Of a stretch of 44,924 nt of DNA, positions 2,656 through 44,160 are shown piece after piece. Position numbers and translations under genes: made by a program. The DNA comes from a virus. The stretch is from positions 1-44,924 of the IMG/VR virus record IMGVR_UViG_3300046000_006534; one strand, 5' to 3'. Each line of letters opens with the position of its first letter. The first letter of the stretch is position 1. A model generated the notes under the pieces. That model was given only the letters and a program-made list of their open reading frames with translations. It did not search any database and was not told the DNA's origin.

Positions 2656-4988
2656 CAACACCAGACCTTTCACCCCTCGGCGCAGCCGCAGTCGAATATG
2701 CCAAGCGCGGCTGGGCCGTCTTCCCCCTTCTGCCAGAATCGAAAGAACCCCTGATCAGCAAGCGCATGGGTGGGCGCGGGTTTCTCGACGCCACCACCGA
2801 TCTGCAAAAGATCACCAACTGGTGGCGTGTCACACCCAATGCCAACATTGGCCTTTCCCTCATCCATTCTGGGCTGGTCTGTGTTGATGCGGACACCTAC
2901 CGTCCGGAATGCGAGTGGGCCTCATTCATCGCAGGCCGTGATCTGCCAGCAACCCTCGTCCAGCAATCGGCGCGGGGCGGAACCCATTACATCTTTACCG
3001 CCCCCCAAACCACAGACTTCCCGGCCCACTTGTGCAAATTCGTGGACATAAAGCACAAGGGCTACATTGTGCTGGAGCCATCCATCTTTGAGGGTGCGGT
3101 CTACAGCTTTCAGACCGATGACGACCCGGCCCCGGCCCCAGATTGGCTTTTATCAGCTAAGCCACATGTGCCAGAGCGCCAATCGTCATCGGCTACCGTC
3201 ACCGTGCGCACAGCCGATCCGCGTGTCTTGGCCTATTGCCAGACTGCCATTGCGCAAGAGTTGGGCGTGGTGGCAAATGCACCCGACGGCACCCGCAACA
3301 ACACCCTGAACGCCGCCGCATTCAACATCGGGCAGATCGTCGGGGCAGGGCTGGCAGATCGTGACGACATGGCCGCAGCTCTGTCCGAAGCTGCATCGCA
3401 CTGGCCAAACCCTGCCAAGACAGCCGGGACCATCGCATCCGGCTTGACCGCAGGTATGGCCACGCCGCGGGCCTTCCCGATGGATGATGAACCCCCATTC
3501 GATCCGACCGAGATGCAAAAGGTTGTGGATGCAATCTGGTCCAGTTTCGAGCGGCGCGGGGATAAAAGCCGAGAGGAAGCCATTTCCGATGCCATCAAGG
3601 AAATCACCGAAACCCAAACCCCTATGCGTGACCTCTGGCAAGCCATGCCATCATTCCCAACCGGTTCTGCCCGGCGGAAATACCAAGAGGCCATCATGCC
3701 AACATCGGCCGAGTTTGAGCGCCTCATCCCGAAAGACCCAGGATCATTCCCAATATCCTCGATCGTGAGGGGGTGCCCCGGCCTCTTGGGGCAGCTTGCC
3801 GACTTTATCGACGCAGCCTCTCCAACTGCCACCGAGGCTGGGGCTATAGCCGTGGCTATCCCCCTGCTTGGCGCGATCATGGGCCGGGCTTACCGCACTG
3901 AAACCAACCTGCGCACCAACGTCTACACCGTCGCCCTTGGAGGGTCCGGTTCTGGCAAGACAAGCCTTGTAAGCCCTGCCAAAGAACTCCTGACCCTTGC
4001 CAAAATGACCAACATCATCGGATCTGATCGCATCGCATCAGGGTCAGGTCTGCTGAAAATGCTCAGCGGCAACACCCCGAAGGTCTGCTTTCTGGATGAG
4101 TTCGGGCACATGCTGAAGCAGATCGGCGCGCCCGGTGCAGGGTCGCACTCCAAGCAGATCATCACCGAGTTTACCGCCCTCTATTCGGCGGCAAACACCC
4201 TCTTTACCGGCACGGCCTATGCCACGAACCCACCAGACCCAATCGACAGCCCCCACCTATGCTTATTCGGCATGGCGACGCCAGATCAGTTCTGGGACGC
4301 CTTCGGGTCATCTGCAATGGAGGATGGATCAATCGCCCGCTACCTGATTTTTCCAATCGGAAAGAGCGGACCGAAAGACCCAGACATGCGCTTTCAATCT
4401 GAAATTGTGGATGCCATGGAAGGTGTCGCCAACGCTGTCGGAAGCCGGGTGCGCGGCAATCTTGGCATTGCCCAGATATGTCAAGCCGAAATGTCGGCGG
4501 GCGCGGAAAAAGCCCGGCAGTCGCTCATTCGCACCATGACATCATGTGCCGAATATGCCGAGGCGAACGGCGTCAAGGGCGGCTCTGCCATCTTGCGACG
4601 CGTTGCTGAAAACGCCTACAAGATAGCCCTGATCAGCGCCGTCGGGGTTGACCCAGTCGCGCCCAAGATCACCGATGCAGACTTTGCCATTGGCCACGCC
4701 TTGGCCCGCTGGTCAGCCACATCCATGATTGCCAACATCGCCTCTCACATCGCAGATAACCAATATGAGCGCGATGTGAACGCAGTCGAGCGGCGCATTG
4801 AGGCCGCTGGAAAGGATGGCATCCTGCAAGGGAAACTGAACAACGACATGCGCGCAATTCGCAAGCGCGACTTTGAAGAGATCATCGCAGGCCTGCTTGA
4901 CGGTGGCGTCATTTTCCGCAGCAAGACAGACAGCAAGAAGCCCGGAAGCCGTGTCTTTCACCGAAAATATCTGCAAGACCAAGACTGA
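2649..4988 (+). CDS. Bifunctional DNA primase/polymerase with C-terminal DUF3987-type ATPase
   Basis: This 779-residue replication protein has an N-terminal archaeo-eukaryotic Prim-Pol domain (about residues 10-170) with the metal-binding motif VCVDAD (D80, D82) and the GGTHYIF segment (H113). A C-terminal P-loop ATPase follows, with Walker A GGSGSGKTS near residue 431 and Walker B FLDEFGH near 480, matching the DUF3987 type often found in phage and plasmid primase-helicases. The likely job is priming and unwinding at the phage origin. It is the last gene before a terminator, and the repeat-rich region 5021-5266 lies directly downstream, which makes that region a candidate origin. Confidence 0.9.
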   Translation: MLTTPDLSPLGAAAVEYAKRGWAVFPLLPESKEPLISKRMGGRGFLDATTDLQKITNWWRVTPNANIGLSLIHSGLVCVDADTYRPECEWASFIAGRDLPATLVQQSARGGTHYIFTAPQTTDFPAHLCKFVDIKHKGYIVLEPSIFEGAVYSFQTDDDPAPAPDWLLSAKPHVPERQSSSATVTVRTADPRVLAYCQTAIAQELGVVANAPDGTRNNTLNAAAFNIGQIVGAGLADRDDMAAALSEAASHWPNPAKTAGTIASGLTAGMATPRAFPMDDEPPFDPTEMQKVVDAIWSSFERRGDKSREEAISDAIKEITETQTPMRDLWQAMPSFPTGSARRKYQEAIMPTSAEFERLIPKDPGSFPISSIVRGCPGLLGQLADFIDAASPTATEAGAIAVAIPLLGAIMGRAYRTETNLRTNVYTVALGGSGSGKTSLVSPAKELLTLAKMTNIIGSDRIASGSGLLKMLSGNTPKVCFLDEFGHMLKQIGAPGAGSHSKQIITEFTALYSAANTLFTGTAYATNPPDPIDSPHLCLFGMATPDQFWDAFGSSAMEDGSIARYLIFPIGKSGPKDPDMRFQSEIVDAMEGVANAVGSRVRGNLGIAQICQAEMSAGAEKARQSLIRTMTSCAEYAEANGVKGGSAILRRVAENAYKIALISAVGVDPVAPKITDADFAIGHALARWSATSMIANIASHIADNQYERDVNAVERRIEAAGKDGILQGKLNNDMRAIRKRDFEEIIAGLLDGGVIFRSKTDSKKPGSRVFHRKYLQDQD

Positions 4989-26914: not shown

Positions 26915-27099
26915 CTGCGGGACACCGTGCCGATAAGCCATTGATCTGTATTGCGCGGCAACGCGGGAAAGTGTCCCGCAGATGCGTTGAAAACGTTGGA
27001 TTTTTTGTTGAATTGGTGGGCGATCTTGGACCATCATTCGTGGCTTATCGTCCTTGTTTTGTTGCTCCAAGTGTCCCGCACGGAAAGACTGCGGGACAC
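26915..27099. repeat. TGCGGGACAC repeats next to integrase (candidate attP/arm sites)
   Basis: The non-coding gap between late terminator and integrase holds four copies of a 10-mer: CTGCGGGACAC at 26915-26925 and 27089-27099, and its complement GTGTCCCGCA at 26971-26980 and 27071-27080. The outer pair is direct, the inner pair inverted. An AT-rich stretch lies between the inner copies. Position beside the integrase 3' end and the paired arrangement fit integrase arm sites and an attP core. No tRNA-like fragment was recognised. Confidence 0.65.
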
Positions 27100-28187
27100 T
27101 ACCAGTCCAGACCAGCCAAAGCCTTCATGCCATCGGCGGCCAAAACCTGACGTTCAACACCCTTGGTGTAGACTTCCGAGGTCTTTGCTTGGGTATGTGC
27201 CAGCACTGCCATGATCTGGTGTTGTGAGCAGCCCGATTCTGCCATCAACTCGGCCATGGCCTTGCGAATGCCGTGCGACGAACGGTCAACCAACCCTGCG
27301 GCGGCGCACCAGCGCTGGACGCGGACGCGCAGCGCCTCGACCGATGTAAAGGGGCGTCCTGTCTCGGACAGCAGATAGGTTGGCCCTACGACCACAGATG
27401 CGCGGGTGGCTTTGAAAAGCGGCGGTAGCATCGGGATTGCGACGGGCGAAGATCCTTTCTTGCGTGGTTGCCATTTCAACCAGGTCTGCCCGTTGATCAT
27501 CACCTCGTTCTCGCGCCCCAGCCAAAGGGCATCACCAATGCGGCAAGCCGTGAAGGCCTGTAGGGTCAGCCACAAATGGGCGGTCGTGCCGGGTGGATGC
27601 ACCTCGCGGAACTGGCGCAGATCGGCGGGCTTCCATGCGACAGCCCCGCCCTTTGGGTTGCGGTTGATGGTGCCGATTCCTGCGGCCGGATTGTGATGGA
27701 TCATGCCCCGCTCTATAGCCCACTCATAGACCGCGCGGATGGATTTGATCAGGTTGTCTGCCGCGCCCGGCACATGCGCCCAGCTATCGCGGATCGCCAC
27801 GAAGGCCGAGGCAGGGGCGGCGATATGGTAATCCCCATACCGGTCACCGTCTTTGCTGGTGTATTCGCACAGTCTTGTCAGCACCGATCTGCGCTGTTTC
27901 AAAGTGGCAGGTGACATTTGGCCCGCGCCAACCATCTTGGCCAGAAAATCCAGATATGAGCCAACCAGCCAGTCGATGGACATTTCAACCGCCTGTGGCG
28001 TGGCCGGTTCCCAAGTTTCGCCCGCCCGTGCGGCATGGTAGTGATGTGCAAAATCTGGGTGATCTGGCATCACTGGAATGTGGATGCGTCGGGATTTATC
28101 GCCTTCCACGCGGACGCGGCAGCGCGGGGTGCCGTTGCGGTGCCGTTCGATCAGCAGCCCCGGAAAATCAACCCGCACCGGAATCAT
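27099..28187 (-). CDS. int: Tyrosine recombinase (integrase)
   Basis: This protein is about 362 residues from ATG 28187, which overlaps the upstream stop as ATGA; a GTG at 28199 would add four residues. Counted from the GTG start, catalytic residues are Arg220 (ACRIGDALW), Lys247/248, His309 and Arg312 (HGIRKA), His335 (LAHTQ) and Tyr344 (SEVYTKG). The N-terminal part carries a SAM-like core-binding domain. It integrates the phage DNA at attP, probably the adjacent repeat region. It is the last gene of the leftward operon, so the shared repressor should control it. Confidence 0.95.
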   Translation of the reverse strand: MIPVRVDFPGLLIERHRNGTPRCRVRVEGDKSRRIHIPVMPDHPDFAHHYHAARAGETWEPATPQAVEMSIDWLVGSYLDFLAKMVGAGQMSPATLKQRRSVLTRLCEYTSKDGDRYGDYHIAAPASAFVAIRDSWAHVPGAADNLIKSIRAVYEWAIERGMIHHNPAAGIGTINRNPKGGAVAWKPADLRQFREVHPPGTTAHLWLTLQAFTACRIGDALWLGRENEVMINGQTWLKWQPRKKGSSPVAIPMLPPLFKATRASVVVGPTYLLSETGRPFTSVEALRVRVQRWCAAAGLVDRSSHGIRKAMAELMAESGCSQHQIMAVLAHTQAKTSEVYTKGVERQVLAADGMKALAGLDW

Positions 28188-28593: not shown

Positions 28594-28937
28594 TCCTCGC
28601 CCTCCTGTTGGCCACGGGCGCGGATGGCTGCAATAACGTCACGCTCTGCCTCTCGCCCCCGCTGTTCCGCCTCGGCCAGCAGCGCGGCAAGCGCGTCGGG
28701 GTCTATGATTGAGGTAACAAGCCGAACAATATCGGCGTTCGCGCCATCTTGGGCATCCTGCAAATTACCCACATCACCATCCACAGAATAATACCCGTGA
28801 CGATTCCACATACCATTCGGCCAAGCGACGTAGCGGCCAAAGATCGATTTGGCTTCCCATACTTCACGCGGCAGTGTCGATTTACACTGTTCCCACACCA
28901 GCGGCGCGACAAGGCGGGATAGGTCAACGGCGGTCAT
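28590..28937 (-). CDS. Hypothetical protein
   Basis: This 115-residue protein has an aromatic-rich middle (GRYVAWPNGMWNRHGYYSVD) and a helical C-terminus (LLAEAEQRGREAERDVIAAI). The first half resembles small phage proteins that describe a folded beta domain, but no function is recognised. It overlaps both neighbours by 4 bases. Confidence 0.65.
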   Translation of the reverse strand: MTAVDLSRLVAPLVWEQCKSTLPREVWEAKSIFGRYVAWPNGMWNRHGYYSVDGDVGNLQDAQDGANADIVRLVTSIIDPDALAALLAEAEQRGREAERDVIAAIRARGQQEGEE

Positions 28938-29248
28938 TGGGATTTCTCCTGATGGTGCGCATAACGCAATTTCTTTTTCCAGCGATCTGCTGCTGATTTT
29001 TCTAGATCCCCCGGTGATCGAATGTCACCAGCGCGGATCATTGCCAGATGCACAGCGAACAGGTCGAGCAATTCGCTTTCAAGGAGTCTGTGGTTCGGCA
29101 CAGCCTGAGGATCGGCAGGATGGTAGCTGTCGTGTCTGTGTCGGAGTGTCTTCCCGACAACCTGAATAACCTCAGCACATTCCTCCGCAATCATGGCTAG
29201 GCGCTCTGCTTGTGATGGGGTGAGGTCATTGAAGTGATCGCCTATCAC
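28934..29248 (-). CDS. MazG-like nucleotide pyrophosphohydrolase family protein
   Basis: This 104-residue all-helical protein has MIAEECAEVIQVVGKTLRH (EExxE) and, about 40 residues later, ESELLDLFAVHLAMI (ExxxD). These are the metal-binding motifs of MazG/all-alpha NTP pyrophosphatases. Phage members may adjust nucleotide or alarmone pools. It lies in the leftward accessory operon. Confidence 0.75.
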   Translation of the reverse strand: MIGDHFNDLTPSQAERLAMIAEECAEVIQVVGKTLRHRHDSYHPADPQAVPNHRLLESELLDLFAVHLAMIRAGDIRSPGDLEKSAADRWKKKLRYAHHQEKSQ

Positions 29249-29529
29249 GCTGCACCGCCTTTCTTTTCTGCGAAAAGCGCGCCAAGCAGTCTGCCCTCAA
29301 CGCCATAGTCCGAGGTCAATACCAGAGCGTCATCCTCGGCTAGGTGGATTTTTACCTCTTCTGGCCAGTGGACCGGATTTAAGCTGACCCAAATTACCTT
29401 GAAAAACTTGCCATTTTCAAACTTAACGGTTGGCATCGCACCTGGTATTTTTTCAAACGCCACCCGCATGTCAGCCGGAAGATTTTTGAATTTTCCAATC
29501 GGCCACACTATCAAATCTTTGTTGGTCAT
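29245..29529 (-). CDS. Hypothetical protein
   Basis: This 94-residue protein (MTNKDLIVWPIGKFKNLPAD at the start) is mixed alpha/beta and rich in Val and Lys. The surrounding DNA is less GC-rich than its neighbours. No family is recognised. It overlaps both neighbours by 4 bases. Confidence 0.65.
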   Translation of the reverse strand: MTNKDLIVWPIGKFKNLPADMRVAFEKIPGAMPTVKFENGKFFKVIWVSLNPVHWPEEVKIHLAEDDALVLTSDYGVEGRLLGALFAEKKGGAA

Positions 29530-29738
29530 GCTGCACCGCCGATCAAGCCAAACGCATCCGCTTGAAACGCCTCGATCACCTCAGCCGATGTGAGATCGTG
29601 ATCCACGCCAAACAGGTCTGGCGCACAGTCACAGACTTCGCGGGCGAAGTTTTCCAGCACCGCCACCCCCGGAAATCCGTCATGGATCACGCCGTCGAGC
29701 AGGCGGGTGTCGGTCCATTCGATTGCGGTTTCAGCCAT
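29526..29738 (-). CDS. Hypothetical protein
   Basis: This 70-residue protein from ATG 29738 begins MAETAIEWTDTRLLDGVIHD and is acidic. The longer frame to 29795 would overlap the upstream gene more and is not preferred. No family is recognised. Confidence 0.6.
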   Translation of the reverse strand: MAETAIEWTDTRLLDGVIHDGFPGVAVLENFAREVCDCAPDLFGVDHDLTSAEVIEAFQADAFGLIGGAA

Positions 29739-30450
29739 TGGACTTCGCCTCGGCCAAGTGTTGCATATCAGCCATGGCCACCTCGTTGCTTTCATAAAAG
29801 CGAACGGGGCTGATCTGGTATCCGCTGGCGCGATAGATCAGTTGCGCGGCCAAACACCAGCCGTGACGTTGCTCAAGCGCGTATCCTGCCTCACCAGCCA
29901 GATGGACCGCCCATCCAGCACGGCAATGAGTTGTCGAGCATGTATGCACACCAGCCATGTTTAATGCGCCTGTCTGGCTAGCCGCATCGAAAATCCGCTG
30001 ATGAATGCTTTCGATCACCGGCACGGGTGGCGGCATATAGTCGCCAACCTTGCCAGATTTGCCCGAGCAGCGCGAGCAGCCCGAGCAGCGCGAGCAGCGC
30101 GAGCAGCCCGAGCAGCGCGAGCAGTCCGAGCAGTCCGAGCAGCGCGAGCAGCCCGAGCAGTCCGAGCAGCCCGAGCAGCGCGAGCAGCCCGAGCAGTCCG
30201 AGCAGCGCGAACAGTCCGAGCAGCGCGAGCAGCCCGAGCAGCGCGAGCAGCCCGAGCAGTCCGAGCAGCGCGAACAGTCCGAGCAGCGCGAACAACGCGA
30301 ACAGCCCGAACAGCCCGAACAGTTGACGCAATTTCTGCAATCAACTAGCGATGCTAGCGCTTTTTTTGCAGAATCCTCCGATCCACAATAGGCGACAGAG
30401 CAGCGATTGCCGTTTTCGTCCTCGAACCATTTTTCAGTTTGTTCACTCAT
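29731..30450 (-). CDS. Cys-Ser-X repeat protein with conserved C-terminal domain
   Basis: This 239-residue protein is taken from ATG 30450, which has AAGGAG 8 bases upstream; the ATG at 30456 is too close to it and the frame extends to 30486. Residues about 44-130 are 29 uninterrupted Cys-Ser-X triplets where X is only Gly, Arg or Asp, preceded by CRNCVN. The N-terminus (SEQTEKWFEDENGNRCSVAY) and the C-terminal domain (HTCSTTHCRAGWAVHLAGEA, then a helical tail) are ordinary. About 29 cysteines in register could form a metal-binding or disulfide-stapled solenoid. The function is unknown. Confidence 0.8.
   Translation of the reverse strand: MSEQTEKWFEDENGNRCSVAYCGSEDSAKKALASLVDCRNCVNCSGCSGCSRCSRCSDCSRCSDCSGCSRCSGCSRCSDCSRCSDCSGCSRCSGCSDCSGCSRCSDCSDCSRCSGCSRCSRCSGCSRCSGKSGKVGDYMPPPVPVIESIHQRIFDAASQTGALNMAGVHTCSTTHCRAGWAVHLAGEAGYALEQRHGWCLAAQLIYRASGYQISPVRFYESNEVAMADMQHLAEAKSNG
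30061..30321 (-). repeat. Tandem 9-bp repeats encoding Cys-Ser-X triplets
   Basis: Twenty-nine 9-base units read on the minus strand as TGC TCG NNC with few changes, the third codon being GGC, CGC or GAC. First two codons are near-invariant even at synonymous sites, which points to recent expansion by slippage or recombination. Alternative frames through it are open only because of the period of 9. Confidence 0.92.
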
Positions 30451-30507: not shown

Positions 30508-30729
30508 TCAGGCTTTGCCTGCATCTTTCATTGCGGCTTGAATGCCGACTGCCACGGCGTCAGCCACGCGGTAAGCTGTTGTCACGCCGTATCTGCGAAC
30601 GAGGGCCACGCCGATTGCCCCGCCCAAGCCGTCTGGCGAAGACCCCACGCGGATAGCATCGGCAATCATTTCGCATTCCGGGCCAGTGAGGGGCGCTTGC
30701 GTGGGTTTCCGTCTGGGGAAAAACGTCAT
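30508..30729 (-). CDS. Hypothetical protein
   Basis: This 73-residue protein starts MTFFPRRKPTQAPLTGPECE and is otherwise a helical Ala/Val-rich domain (RRYGVTTAYRVADAVAVGIQ). ATG 30729 overlaps the previous stop as TGATG. No family is recognised. Confidence 0.62.
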   Translation of the reverse strand: MTFFPRRKPTQAPLTGPECEMIADAIRVGSSPDGLGGAIGVALVRRYGVTTAYRVADAVAVGIQAAMKDAGKA

Positions 30730-31043
30730 CACACCGCCCCCATGCTGAGACGCCACGCAACGGCGGCTGCGGTAACCAGCCACCCGGCGATGAGAAGGCG
30801 GTGCATCCAGCGCAGGGCCAAGACCTCGCGGTCGTCGCAGGCGACACGGTGAGCGTCATCTGCGGCCATGGCGCGGCGGACAGCACGCACGGTTATGATG
30901 TCGGTGTAATCGGCAGAATGCCCGTCCAGATAGTCACACGCGACGGCGATCTGGTCAGGCGTTGACCCTTCGCACCGCAGAACCTCGCGGCAAGCTGCAA
31001 GCGTGGCAACATCGGCGGGGAAGTCGTGCATCTGGGCGCTCAT
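30729..31043 (-). CDS. Hypothetical protein with C-terminal membrane segment
   Basis: This 104-residue protein has a soluble N-terminal part (DFPADVATLAACREVLRCEG) and a hydrophobic segment near the C-terminus (LLIAGWLVTAAAVAWRL), so it may be tail-anchored. Function unknown. It overlaps its neighbours by 1-4 bases. Confidence 0.62.
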   Translation of the reverse strand: MSAQMHDFPADVATLAACREVLRCEGSTPDQIAVACDYLDGHSADYTDIITVRAVRRAMAADDAHRVACDDREVLALRWMHRLLIAGWLVTAAAVAWRLSMGAV

Positions 31044-38830: not shown

Positions 38831-39975
38831 AATTCAGCACCGACATGAAGGCCTTCCGCGCTGCGCTCGCCGTGGCTGGGAAGGTCATCCCGGCCAAGTC
38901 ACCATGGCCGATCATCCTCAACATCAAGCTGGTGACCAATGACAACCGGGTCACCATGATCGGCACCGACACCGACACGACTTTTGAAATGGACGTGCAG
39001 GCCGAAGTTATGACCGAGGGTGCGGTGGCATTTTCATATGCCACGCTCACTACATTCTGCGCAGCGGCAAAGGCCACCAGCTTGTCAGTCGAAGTCGAAA
39101 AAGGCAGCGCAACCCTGCGGGCCGGAAAGTCGCGCATCGTCTTGTCTGCGGTGGACGTGACCGATTTTCCAAACTATCAGCCAGCAACAGGCGAGACCGT
39201 CGCAGTTGACCGTGACACGTTCTGTCAGGCAATCAAGTTTTGTGCCGCCGCTGCGTCCGACGAAGAGGCGCGCTATTACCTCAATGGCCCATATATTCAA
39301 GAGCGTGATGGCTCTGTGCATGTTTGGGGCACCGATGGCCACGCGCTACACCATGCACATCTGCCGGGCATGACTGGCATCGGCGGCGGTGGCACCCTTC
39401 CCATGGCGGCAACCCAGATCATCCTTGGTATCGCAGAAAAGGCAGAAACCGTTCACGCCATGGTCTGCGAGCACGGTTGGCACGTCATGGCCGGACCCGT
39501 CCGGGCTTGGGGTAAGGTGATCGAAGGATCATTCCCCGACGCCATGCGGGTCAAGGATGGCTTTGTCGGCTGGCAAGAGTTTGTTGTTGCTGGCCTTGAT
39601 GAAATTACATCAGCCATCACAGTCGCCACCTGTGGCACCGATACCATGGCGAACAAAGCGCGCAGCCTGATCATCCGGGCCGATGCTGGACAACCTGTCA
39701 TCATGCGGGGGGCCAAGGGAGCCGCGGGCATCATCCACGCGGGACGGGCCGAAATGGAGGCATCCGGCAAGGGCCATGCCGCAATGTGTGTGTCTGCATC
39801 CCTGTTGTCCGAAAGCGTCAAGGCCATGGCGGTAAAGGAGTTCTCCTTGTCCTACACAGACCGGGATGGCACCTCTGCCGTGCTGGTCACGCCCGCTCAA
39901 AAGAGCGCCGCAATCGATATGTCCGCGCTGATCATGGGTATTCGCGCAACAGCAGAGGAGTTGGCCGATGTCTGA
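38827..39975 (+). CDS. DNA polymerase III beta subunit-like sliding clamp
   Basis: This 382-residue protein has the three-domain length of bacterial beta clamps (about 366 residues). It begins MKFSTDMKAFRAALAVAGKV with PWPIILNIKL, like the DnaN start (FLNAVSFVSRVIP...LPILSNVLI), and domain-2/3 features such as YYLNGPYIQ with a preceding TDG-like WGTDGHALHH and GKVIEGSFPD. It would load on DNA as a ring and hold the host replicase or other partners. No polymerase gene was recognised in the window. Confidence 0.85.
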   Translation: MKFSTDMKAFRAALAVAGKVIPAKSPWPIILNIKLVTNDNRVTMIGTDTDTTFEMDVQAEVMTEGAVAFSYATLTTFCAAAKATSLSVEVEKGSATLRAGKSRIVLSAVDVTDFPNYQPATGETVAVDRDTFCQAIKFCAAAASDEEARYYLNGPYIQERDGSVHVWGTDGHALHHAHLPGMTGIGGGGTLPMAATQIILGIAEKAETVHAMVCEHGWHVMAGPVRAWGKVIEGSFPDAMRVKDGFVGWQEFVVAGLDEITSAITVATCGTDTMANKARSLIIRADAGQPVIMRGAKGAAGIIHAGRAEMEASGKGHAAMCVSASLLSESVKAMAVKEFSLSYTDRDGTSAVLVTPAQKSAAIDMSALIMGIRATAEELADV

Positions 39976-42553
39976 TTTGTCTTATACCGACTTCTTGCGC
40001 GCCAAAGCAGCCATCGCGCCCAAGTTCGGCGGGCTGGAGGTGGACGAGGCCGACCTGAACCCCATGTTGAAACCCCATACCCGCCGCATGGTGGCGTGGG
40101 GCCTAAACGGCGGGCGGCGCGCGTGGTTTGCATCTTTCGGGCTGCACAAGACTGCAACCCAACTTGAAGCTATGCGGGTCATTTGGCGAAAATCCAATAA
40201 ACCCGTTCTGATCGTCGCACCCTTGGGGGTGCGGCGCGAGTTCTTCGAAGATGCCCGCCTGCGCTTTCTTGGCGACTTTGCCATTGATCTGAGATTCATC
40301 AAATCAGACGCCGAAATTGACGGCCCGGCGGTCTATCTGACCAACTACGAGAGCGTGCGAGACGGAAAGATCAGCCCCGGCCACTTCGAGGGCGCCAGCC
40401 TTGACGAGGCGGCTGTGTTGCGCGGCATGGGCGGCACAAAGACATTCCGCACGTTCATTCGCACCTTTATGGACGTGCCATATCGGTTCGTCGCCACCGC
40501 AACCCCAAGCCCGAATGACTATATCGAATTGCTGTCCTACGCCGGATTTCTGGACGTGATGGACATTGCGCAGGCCAAGACCCGCTTTTTCAAGCGTAAC
40601 AGTGAGAAAGCCGACAACCTGACCCTGATGGTTCACAAGGAGCGCGAGTTCTGGCTATGGGTGGCATCATGGGCCCTGTTTGTCACCAAGCCATCCGACC
40701 TTGACTCGGCTTTTTCCGATGATGGCTATGACCTTCCGCCGTTGGATGTGCGCTGGCACGAATTGCCAGTGGACCATGCCAAATCGGCCGGAAATGAAAA
40801 AGGCGGGCAGGGTCGATTGATCCGTGACGCCGCCGTCGATCTGTCCGGCGCTGCCAAGGAAAAGCGCGAAAGCCTGCCCGCCCGTCTTGAAAAGATGATG
40901 GAACTGCGCAGCGAAGATCTGACAGCGCACCGGATCATCTGGCACGACCTGGAGCGCGAGCGCGAAGGCATTGAGCGCGCGCTGCCAGACTGCGCAACTG
41001 TCTTTGGCAATATGGACCTTGACGAGCGCGAGCGCATCATTGGCGATTTCGCGGACGGTCGCATTCCTGAAATCGGCGCAAAGCCTGTCATGCTTGGCAG
41101 CGGCACGAACCTGCAACGCCATTGCGCATGGTCAATTTTCTTGGGCATCGGCTTCAAATTCAATGACTTTATTCAAGCGGTTCACCGTCTGCGGCGGTTT
41201 GGGCAGGAAGCCCCGTCCGTGCGGATTGACATGATCTACACCGAAGCGGAGCGCAGCGTGAAGCGTGCACTTGAACGGAAATGGCAACAACACAACGAAA
41301 TGGTGGCGCGGATGGTAGGTATTGTGCGGGAATATGGACTGGCAGAAATCGCCATGCAGCAGCAGCTTTTGCGCGCCATGGGTGTTGAGCGGATCGAGGC
41401 GACCGGCCCCGGTTACAGGGTGGTGCATAACGATTGCGTCAAAGAGACAAAGCGCATGGCCCAAGGATCGGTGCAGCTTGTCGTCACCTCAATTCCATTC
41501 TCGACCCAATACGAATATAGCCCGAACTTTGCCGACTTCGGCCATACCGATGACGACGCGCATTTCTGGCAACAGATGGGCTATCTGATCCCAGAGCTGT
41601 TCCGCGTGCTGGAGCCAGGCCGGATCGCCGCTATCCACGTCAAAGATCGGATCATCCCCGGCGGCATCAATGGCCTTGGCTTTCAAACCCTGTCCACCCT
41701 GCATTGCGACTGTATCGCCCAATTCCAGAAGTTCGGCTTTGCCTATCTGGGCATGAAAACCATCGTCACCGACGTTGTGCGCGAAAACAACCAGACCTAT
41801 CGGCTGGGCTGGACCGAGCAATGCAAGGACGGCACTCGCATGGGCGTCGGCACGCCGGAATATCTGCTGATTTTCCGCAAGCCACCATCAGACCGCAGCG
41901 ATGGCTATGCGGACCGCAAGGTGACAAAAGCCAAAAAGGAATGGAACCCCGAGGAGAAGAATTGGCGCAACGAGGCCGGGTATTCCCGCGCGCGCTGGCA
42001 GATGGACGCGGCTGGCTTTACCCGGTCCAATGGCAACCGCACGCTTAAGCCGGAAGAACTGGACGGGCTGGAGGCCAGCGTCGTCTATCAGACTTGGAAG
42101 CGGTTCAGTCTGTCCGAGGTCTACGATTTTGAGCACCACGTCAAGATCGGCGAACACCTTGAAATGCACGGTCGCTTGCCGCCAACCTTTATGCTGTTGC
42201 CGCCCCACACCCTGCACCCGGACGTGTGGACAGATGTTGCGCGCATGATAACCATCAATGCCGAACAGGAGCGCGCTGGCAACGAACTGCACCTCTGCCC
42301 GCTGCAATACGACATCGTTGACCGGGCCATCGCCCAATACACCGAAGAAGGTGAAACCGTCTTTGACCCATTCGGCGGCCTAATGACAGTGCCTTTCCGC
42401 GCCCTGAAATTGAAGCGCAAAGGCATCGGCGTGGAGTTGAACAAGACCTATTTCTTGGACGGGTTGAAGTATGTCGAAGGCGCTTCCCGCCGCTTGGACA
42501 TGCCGTCGCTTTTCGACTTCCTGACAGATCAGGAAAATGAGGTGGCGGCATGA
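39968..42553 (+). CDS. SNF2-like helicase fused to adenine/cytosine-N4 DNA methyltransferase
   Basis: This is 861 residues. The N-terminal half is a SNF2-type helicase: Walker A region FASFGLHKTATQ (about 54-65) in which the usual GxGKT is GLHKT, motif II LDEAAV (145-150), and TATPSPND (177-184). The C-terminal half is a methyltransferase with TSIPFSTQYEYSP near 506 (variant of the S/D-PP-Y/F motif) and the SAM-binding DPFGG near 800. It may translocate on DNA and methylate it. It overlaps the clamp gene and the next helicase by 4-8 bases. Confidence 0.86.
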   Translation: MSDLSYTDFLRAKAAIAPKFGGLEVDEADLNPMLKPHTRRMVAWGLNGGRRAWFASFGLHKTATQLEAMRVIWRKSNKPVLIVAPLGVRREFFEDARLRFLGDFAIDLRFIKSDAEIDGPAVYLTNYESVRDGKISPGHFEGASLDEAAVLRGMGGTKTFRTFIRTFMDVPYRFVATATPSPNDYIELLSYAGFLDVMDIAQAKTRFFKRNSEKADNLTLMVHKEREFWLWVASWALFVTKPSDLDSAFSDDGYDLPPLDVRWHELPVDHAKSAGNEKGGQGRLIRDAAVDLSGAAKEKRESLPARLEKMMELRSEDLTAHRIIWHDLEREREGIERALPDCATVFGNMDLDERERIIGDFADGRIPEIGAKPVMLGSGTNLQRHCAWSIFLGIGFKFNDFIQAVHRLRRFGQEAPSVRIDMIYTEAERSVKRALERKWQQHNEMVARMVGIVREYGLAEIAMQQQLLRAMGVERIEATGPGYRVVHNDCVKETKRMAQGSVQLVVTSIPFSTQYEYSPNFADFGHTDDDAHFWQQMGYLIPELFRVLEPGRIAAIHVKDRIIPGGINGLGFQTLSTLHCDCIAQFQKFGFAYLGMKTIVTDVVRENNQTYRLGWTEQCKDGTRMGVGTPEYLLIFRKPPSDRSDGYADRKVTKAKKEWNPEEKNWRNEAGYSRARWQMDAAGFTRSNGNRTLKPEELDGLEASVVYQTWKRFSLSEVYDFEHHVKIGEHLEMHGRLPPTFMLLPPHTLHPDVWTDVARMITINAEQERAGNELHLCPLQYDIVDRAIAQYTEEGETVFDPFGGLMTVPFRALKLKRKGIGVELNKTYFLDGLKYVEGASRRLDMPSLFDFLTDQENEVAA

Positions 42554-44160
42554 TGCAGCTTCGAGATTACCAATCAGCAGCCATCGACGGGCTGTATTCG
42601 TGGTTCGGCGCGGCAAAGGGCAACCCATTGGTTGTTGCCCCAACTGGGGCCGGGAAGTCTGTCATTCTGGCCGAATTCATCCGCCGCGCCATCGCTGACT
42701 ATGGTGACACGCGGATCATCATGGCCACCCACGTCAAAGAGTTGATTGCTCAAAACTATGCCGCCCTGTTGCGCCTTTGGCCCAATGCCCCGGCTGGCAT
42801 CTATTCGGCGGGCCTTGGCCGCAGGCAGATGCGACAGGTGACCTTCGCTGGCATCCAGTCCGTCGCCAAAAAGGCCGCAGACTTTGGCCATATCGACATT
42901 CTGATTGTGGACGAAGCCCACCTGATCCCCCGGTCTGGCGACACGCTCTATCAGAAATTCATCGAAGGGCTGCGCCTGACCAATCCAAATCTAAAGGTCA
43001 TCGGTCTGACCGCCACGCCGTTCCGATTGGATAGCGGGCGGTTGGACCGGGGGCAGGGCGCAATCTTTGACGGTATCGCCTACGACATTCCAATCCCCAT
43101 GCTGGTAACGCGCGGATACCTTGCACCCCTAATCAGCAAGCGCCCCGGTTTCGTTTTCGACACGACCGGACTGCACACCAGAGCCGGGGATTTTGTCGAA
43201 GGCGAAATGAATGACCGCTTCAACAAGGACGACGTGACGCGGGCCGCCGTGTCGGAAATCATCGCCTTGGGGCAAGACCGCCGATCATGGCTTTTGTTCT
43301 GCATTTCGGTTGACCATGCATCTGCCGTCAAAGCCGAGTTGATCCGCCAAGGCATCCCGGCCGATCTGGTGACAGGTGATACGCCAGCGATGGAGCGGGC
43401 GCGCATTCTGGAGGATTTCAAGGCCGGACGCATCCGTGCGCTGACCAACGTCAACGTCCTAACCACCGGGTTTGACGCGCCCGCAACTGACCTGCTGGCA
43501 TTCCTGCGGCCCACAAAATCGCTTGGACTTTACATGCAGATGGCGGGCCGCGCCATGCGGATAGCCCCCGGCAAAGAGAGCGGTCTGGTGCTGGATTATG
43601 CCGGCAACGTCGCCCGCCACGGCCCGGTTGACGCGGTTTCTGCCACCGAGGGTAGTGCCAAGTCTGGCAAGAAGCTGGAGGGTGAAATCGCCGCCGCCCC
43701 GGCTAAGGCGTGCCCTCAGTGCAACTCGATCCTCTGGATTGGCGCGCGCGAATGCACCGATTGCGGCCATGTTTTCCCAGAGCCAGAACCCAAGATCGAA
43801 CGGACAAGCAGCACCGACGCCATCATGAATCTGACCGCCGTTGACGATTGGCAACCCGTGCGGGACTTCGCGCTGACGCGCCACAGCAAAGACGGCAAGG
43901 CATCGTTGCGAGCCGATTATCTGGTGGGGTCGCGCGTGGTCAAAGAGTTTGTCTGCTTGGAGCATGTCGGGTTTGCGCGCCAAAAGGCCGTGACATGGTG
44001 GCATCAGAACGCCGGGACCACGCCACCCGCAACGGTGGCGGACGCGCTGGAAAGGCAGGCAGAGGTGCGCATTCCTACCGAGGTCGTGGTGCGCAAGGAA
44101 GGCGACTGGTGGCGCGTCACCCGCACACGCGGCGATGCACGGCAAGAGGTGGCGGCATGA
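42550..44160 (+). CDS. DEAD/DEAH-box superfamily 2 helicase with zinc ribbon, complete copy
   Basis: This 536-residue protein has the whole set of motifs. These are the Q-like LRDYQSAAIDGLY, Walker A APTGAGKS (about 30-37), VDEAH, TATPFR, TTGFDAP, and QMAGRAMR, then a zinc ribbon (CPQC with CTDC) and a C-terminal domain ending VTRTRGDARQEVAA. It is the complete version of the truncated gene at the left edge and differs there by 11 residues. ATG 42550 overlaps the previous stop; ATG 42553 is an alternative. Confidence 0.93.
   Translation: MMQLRDYQSAAIDGLYSWFGAAKGNPLVVAPTGAGKSVILAEFIRRAIADYGDTRIIMATHVKELIAQNYAALLRLWPNAPAGIYSAGLGRRQMRQVTFAGIQSVAKKAADFGHIDILIVDEAHLIPRSGDTLYQKFIEGLRLTNPNLKVIGLTATPFRLDSGRLDRGQGAIFDGIAYDIPIPMLVTRGYLAPLISKRPGFVFDTTGLHTRAGDFVEGEMNDRFNKDDVTRAAVSEIIALGQDRRSWLLFCISVDHASAVKAELIRQGIPADLVTGDTPAMERARILEDFKAGRIRALTNVNVLTTGFDAPATDLLAFLRPTKSLGLYMQMAGRAMRIAPGKESGLVLDYAGNVARHGPVDAVSATEGSAKSGKKLEGEIAAAPAKACPQCNSILWIGARECTDCGHVFPEPEPKIERTSSTDAIMNLTAVDDWQPVRDFALTRHSKDGKASLRADYLVGSRVVKEFVCLEHVGFARQKAVTWWHQNAGTTPPATVADALERQAEVRIPTEVVVRKEGDWWRVTRTRGDARQEVAA

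Follow-up and report, generated by a model that had tools for sequence, protein, structure and literature searches.

What kind of protein does a phage make when it repeats Cys-Ser-X without interruption 29 times, and what could such a block be for? This question is raised by one gene in the IMG/VR virus record IMGVR_UViG_3300046000_006534, the whole 44.9 kb of which (44,924 nucleotides; hereafter the window) was analysed. The gene is termed here the CSx gene, after the Cys-Ser-X units of its array. Our reading, to which a probability of roughly 0.55 is given, is that it encodes an early-region phage protein comprised of an N-terminal cap (N-cap), a variable solenoid rod with a cysteine core and a conserved C-terminal domain, the X residues of the rod forming a contact surface that is shuffled. 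The parts of the gene are as follows.

29731 to 30450, minus strand: the CSx-repeat gene, 239 amino acids; the ATG at 30450 has the ribosome-binding site AAGGAG 8 bases before it, the stop codon is at 29731-29733 and the frame is conserved in relatives.
30340 to 30450, minus strand: N-terminal cap, residues 1-37, W..D.NGNRCSV..FGS....A..AL.SL, a short hairpin and helix kept in most relatives.
30322 to 30339, minus strand: two degenerate entry units, C-R-N and C-V-N, residues 38-43, where the family conserves C.NC.NC.
30061 to 30321, minus strand: (Cys-Ser-X)29, 29 tandem 9-base units, residues 44-130, read directly from the sequence.
30025 to 30060, minus strand: linker, residues 131-142, variable in relatives.
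29734 to 30024, minus strand: C-terminal helical domain, residues 143-239, with the motif H-x-C-x-T-T-H-C-R-A-G-W; common to pentapeptide-repeat phage proteins (PHROG 31265).

A first-pass annotation, made from the letters of the DNA, had placed 29 tandem Cys-Ser-X units, with Gly, Arg or Asp at X, between ordinary end domains, and this is borne out with exact coordinates when the ATG at 30450 is taken as the start; for an alternative ATG six bases further upstream the spacing to the AAGGAG is only 2 bases. All 29 units are exact, X being Arg in 12, Gly in 10 and Asp in 7. Three successive units of the form TGYTCNNNN occur 27 times in the window, every time inside the array, and never in 100 dinucleotide-preserving shuffles; the window holds one CSx array only. 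With its 9-base period the array leaves all six frames open, and one open reading frame (ORF), in the CSx frame, joins the N-cap to the C-terminal domain both in the window and in complete relatives. The annotation took the repeat to be selected as protein, against which a frame closed or shifted in relatives would speak; in nearly all the relatives the CSx frame is kept through the array together with both end domains, and on this comparison of reading frames the array is shown to be real coding sequence under selection as protein.

A search of IMG/VR with the C-terminal domain found 357 relatives, and among the best 80 of these in-frame CSx units lie upstream of the domain in 79, the remaining one being cut by a contig end. 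In GTDB, CSx arrays were found at 15 of 33 loci; the loci belong to prophages or are phage-like, and lie in genomes of Phyllobacterium, Kaistia, Rhizorhapis, Bosea, Dyadobacter and Methylobacterium, among other genera. Members from cultured strains include those in prophages of Kaistia dalseonensis, Phyllobacterium phragmitis and Rhizorhapis suberifaciens. As TTHCRAGW served as a search pattern, the invariance of this motif is partly by construction. Across the family the array is 4-52 units long (median 23.5); in some 2,300 units the cysteine at every third position hardly ever changes, and the second position is Ser in 88%. At X the residues D, G, R, Y and N predominate, with hydrophobic residues and Glu, Lys and Gln nearly absent. 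The end pieces are less uniform, there being several N-caps and several alternative C-terminal ends among the CSx proteins. Three of them (loci L105, L154 and L184) carry other N-caps and a short ending, LKYAI...L..E.Y..K, and apparently form a separate subfamily.

The family has been catalogued before. PHROG 15341 matches the window protein over the N-cap and CSx array (E 6e-21, residues 21-144) and, going by that match, is the same family, with function unknown. The annotation's statement that no characterised protein has this exact repeat therefore holds as regards characterisation, but the repeat is not unique to the window. Scans of the window protein against Pfam, NCBIfam and PADLOC gave no match, neither Pfam nor NCBIfam assigned it to a known Cys-rich metal family of the metallothionein type, and literature searches for a Cys-Ser-X repeat found no description.

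Among 50,697 cultured-phage records searched with tblastn, the C-terminal domain was found in Flavobacterium phage FL-1 only (KY421186.2, around the match at 26959-27250), where it follows a long CSx array. FL-1 is the exception as regards frame: its deposited sequence shifts frame within the C-terminal domain, outside the array, so that only the C-terminal piece has been annotated and the N-terminal part has not. The shift may be a sequencing error, decay or recoding. A DNA-pattern scan of IMG/VR for (CSx)6 was filtered by frame and X diversity, which discarded low-complexity frames (GCSGCSG, CCSCCS); many of these are probably the antisense strand of collagen-like arrays. At one contig end (locus L103) a minus-strand ORF has at least 8 Cys-Ser-Asp units directly after a zinc-ribbon-like domain, rich in Cys and similar to the zinc finger of a primase, before being cut by the end of the contig.

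The C-terminal domain is where the CSx proteins meet other repeat proteins. The annotation had proposed looking for this domain with other repeat types, and it does sit on pentapeptide arrays in GTDB, in IMG/VR and on a plasmid. PHROG 31265 consists of pentapeptides followed by the TTHCRAGW domain, and the window protein matches it over the C-terminal domain only (E 4e-23, profile positions 149-247), the pentapeptide N-terminal part being unmatched; at the Pfam cut-off, pentapeptide repeats (PF00805) were found neither in the window protein nor elsewhere in the window. In a protein of Bordetella bronchiseptica plasmid pA a long pentapeptide array precedes the TTHCRAGW domain, and the same combination was recognised by eye at 15 GTDB loci. 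Also by eye, the domain was seen on a leucine-rich-like array (L220:2-427) and on an Ala/Trp/Asp-rich array (L236:5542-6234), one locus each, which are possible further rod types. A pentapeptide-type query in IMG/VR returned 55 pentapeptide and 10 CSx proteins. At loci L283-L285 the second ORF after the pentapeptide gene has a CGMSACWGGW motif resembling C.TTHC.AGW, and its product may be distantly related to the C-terminal domain.

Two further, unrelated C-terminal domains repeat this arrangement in tblastn matches to cultured phages. One is common to two CSx proteins (L108, L201) and to pentapeptide proteins of Caulobacter and other phages; the other (PHROG 20532) is common to two more (L136, L148) and to YdcK/hexapeptide-solenoid proteins of Bacteroides and Chryseobacterium phages. 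Single-sequence searches of IMG/VR with these two domains found only themselves. Taken together, the domain matches make a strong case for module swapping between CSx and other rods, and since the C-terminal domains are common to CSx and to pentapeptide or YdcK/hexapeptide rods, CSx would occupy the slot of a beta-solenoid rod, as judged from architecture.

The second line of evidence is the variation within the arrays, where the pattern of homogenised units with a varied X is strong and directly observed. Averaged over 78 CSx genes, the per-base entropy over the units within a gene is 0, 0,.01, 0, 0,.06, 1.05,.94 and.03 bits for the nine bases of the unit; the three synonymous bases are nearly fixed within a gene, and bases 1-2 of the X codon vary in 99% of the 78 genes. 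A or G stands at the second X base in 97%. The window array itself has slightly more variation at the third Cys base (TGT near the array start). Which codon encodes Ser (TCG, TCC, AGC, TCT or TCA) depends on the gene, most genes using one only. Codon bias as the cause of the fixed synonymous bases can be rejected, as the same Ser base has 1.84 bits in other ORFs of these loci against.067 in the arrays, and 67 of 74 arrays are monomorphic there against 0.01 expected. The sister pentapeptide arrays (59 genes) likewise have fixed core codons and varied surface codons, whereas chromosomal pentapeptide proteins of the same genomes, which have no such C-terminal domain, show 0.44-1.98 bits at the same synonymous bases; the pattern is thus a trait of the phage family, whichever of the two scaffolds is used.

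Close relatives differ in the same place. In two near-identical gene pairs all differences fall inside the array (3/3 and 11/11), and two adjacent CSx paralogues on the plus strand of one locus (L030:2449-3297 and 3331-4242) have C-terminal DNA 97.9% identical and arrays of 45 and 52 units quite different in order. The annotation had suggested rapid copy-number change as a form of phase or length variation. Repeat number does vary, from 4 to 52, but the rapid change consists mainly in units being reshuffled while X is under selection, and not in on/off phase variation, with about two register breaks in some 2,300 units.

As to the fold, the array is probably a solenoid, this being the best-supported of the shapes considered, on moderate evidence. 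Where Ser at position 2 is replaced, it is by beta-formers or large residues (R, Y, F, L, T, W) and hardly ever by A or P, though these are one base away; X favours turn and polar residues. In an AlphaFold2 (AF2) model of the full protein the predicted local distance difference test score (pLDDT) is 71-93 for the N-cap and 85-98 for the C-terminal domain, and in each of the first eight units DSSP assigns a single beta-bridge residue, at the Ser. Of the shapes that the annotation had named, a solenoid is therefore favoured by the position-2 residues, the swapping with solenoids and the AF2 bridges, even with low pLDDT in the array, and a polyproline-like helix is less likely because of the first two of these. 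X shows a weak correlation at lag 4 (Tyr z 3.7, or 2.5 without the top three genes; charge z -1.9), which would fit 12 residues per coil, and the repeat number has no clear preference modulo 3 or 4. The best sequence-profile match in the PDB is the Tenebrio antifreeze solenoid 1ezg, which at E 0.017 is not significant; Foldseek against BFVD returned short Campylobacter phage CP20 proteins and an unnamed entry, A0A1P8VWG3.

We therefore picture a rod that would fill the slot taken in the sister proteins by a pentapeptide rod (a right-handed beta-helix) or a YdcK/hexapeptide solenoid. The Cys of each unit would point into the core, the Ser would sit in a short extended stretch bridging to the neighbouring coils, and X would sit at an exposed corner. 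Whole-unit exchange or conversion would homogenise the 9-base units within each gene whilst selection keeps X mixed (D, G, R, Y, N), and from these two together the array would be a quickly reshuffled contact surface, facing a macromolecule of the host or of a competitor. That X is such a surface we hold at about even odds. That the protein binds or inhibits some host target in early infection is possible but somewhat doubtful, the pointers to a target being weak. More tentative still is the idea that CSx is a minimal tripeptide solenoid, perhaps of 12 residues per coil with the cysteines stacked inside, interchangeable with pentapeptide rods and offering one variable recognition residue per repeat that is rebuilt by unit shuffling, and hence a phage counterpart of hypervariable repeat receptors.

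Several points weigh against this picture and it should be considered with caution. The pLDDT in the array is low, 28-70 for most of it, and as AF2 has a documented bias towards beta-solenoids when given repeats (PMC11795689), the modelled bridges lend the solenoid weak support. Foldseek against the PDB gave no meaningful fold match; the number of units per coil is only hinted at by the lag-4 signal, the periodicity of X not being decisive; and the surface role of X is drawn by analogy. Within-array differences between strains may also be due in part to short-read misassembly, although misassembly cannot yield uniform synonymous sites and varied X sites in 78 genes.

Two rival explanations, both improbable and to a similar degree, deserve most attention. 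The first is a thiol or metal device, in which the chemistry of the cysteine column is the function, whether by binding Zn, Cu or Fe-S clusters or as a redox buffer or disulfide ladder. The near-invariance of Cys over all those units is what it would predict, and the nearest PDB sequence, 1ezg, is disulfide-rich, albeit at E 0.017 only. However, pentapeptide arrays that lack regular Cys carry this C-terminal domain too, and the metal-loaded or disulfide-ladder function raised by the annotation is for that reason not supported; neighbour clustering found no redox or metal genes recurring next to the family, and the confinement of variation to X is left unexplained. The rod may be stabilised by metal or disulfide chemistry, but what the members have in common does not require it. 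The second takes the array for a spacer, flexible or polyproline-like, that varies in length and has an unconstrained X, for which the low AF2 confidence, the nearly random order of X and the range of 4-52 units would speak. In a loose linker, however, Cys would not stay in register at every third position; nor is X unconstrained, given the residues nearly absent from it, and a neutral X cannot account for varied X bases beside fixed synonymous ones, or the spacer for swapping with solenoid rods.

Targeted mutation of X, by a diversity-generating retroelement or similar, in place of selection after unit shuffling, is very unlikely. Such retroelements vary AAY codons, and the variation of bases 1-2 of X with base 3 fixed looks similar. 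No reverse transcriptase (RVT_1) match and no second or template array were found in the window, which may be incomplete, and on these grounds the explanation was rejected; besides, mutagenesis would also give C and T at the second base of X, and the same pattern is present in the pentapeptide arrays. That the array is a DNA-level tandem repeat, an element of recombination or slippage whose open frame is accidental, is hardly credible and was likewise rejected: near-perfect 9-base units, six open frames and, in most genes, one Ser codon would suit it, but it is already contradicted by Ser codons that differ between genes while Cys-Ser stays, by a frame kept with both end domains and by the unrelated DNA of the sister proteins.

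From its gene set (terminase, portal, tape measure, primase, helicase, integrase and repressor, by family or profile matches) the window reads as a temperate tailed phage, and the nearest to its terminase are those of a Pseudanabaena phage and of Rhizobium phages (58-60%). The CSx gene lies on the leftward strand between the repressor and the integrase, that is, in the early region, with these neighbours:

30508 to 30783, minus strand: preceding gene, no family match.
29526 to 29738, minus strand: next gene of the operon, likely ATG at 29738, no family match.

As the CSx stop overlaps the likely start of the latter, the CSx gene belongs to an operon. On the same strand, a MazG-like nucleoside triphosphate pyrophosphohydrolase is encoded at 28934-29248 (PHROG 4856, E 1e-11). 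Clustering of neighbours across the family gave no strictly conserved partner gene; recombination and DNA-metabolism genes, named by sight and not by profile, recur beside it at a few loci each. Elsewhere in the window, two successive plus-strand ORFs at 39968-44160 match helicase PHROG 16, the first also matching DNA methyltransferase PHROGs, and represent either a duplication or a composite gene.

The family, then, is already catalogued though undescribed, and its repeat matches no curated family; what is new is the module swapping of CSx with solenoid rods and the within-gene variation of CSx and sister arrays. If our reading is true, an undescribed repeat with Cys at every third residue joins the solenoids, and there is a class of phage early-region proteins whose rods are built on chemically unrelated scaffolds, with exposed residues diversified and other bases homogenised. 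Such a signature would point to some target with which the phages are in an arms race, and could be searched for in other phage repeat proteins, the common C-terminal domain would serve as a handle for finding that target, and the tripeptide module would be usable in protein design.

Among known systems, PHROG 15341 has the same N-cap and CSx array but, as an uncharacterised profile, is silent on structure, swapping and variation. Pentapeptide phage proteins of the PHROG 31265 type (e.g., WP_306230003.1) have the same C-terminal domain, rod position and variation pattern, whilst their rod is made of A(D/N)LXX pentapeptides without regular Cys and their N-cap is another. The YdcK/hexapeptide proteins of Bacteroides phage BF766P1 and Chryseobacterium phage MA9V-1 share PHROG 20532 with CSx proteins L136 and L148; their rod is of another type, and the window protein has a different C-terminal domain. 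Tenebrio 1ezg, Cys-rich and disulfide-rich, is a short-coil beta-solenoid such as CSx may be, though of 12-residue TCT repeats and ice binding. The pentapeptide-repeat rods Qnr and MfpA bind gyrase, a host enzyme, via their outer face (PMC10886550) and so exemplify a beta-solenoid rod acting by binding, but the repeat is another, the TTHCRAGW domain is absent and nothing in CSx points to gyrase. In the fungal HET-D/HET-E WD40 repeats, concerted evolution homogenises the units whilst hypervariable codons on the recognition surface are under diversifying selection (PMC12222747). These are beta-propeller NLR sensors with no homology to CSx, and recognition is proven there and inferred here; yet homogenised synonymous sites with variation confined to particular codons are found in both.
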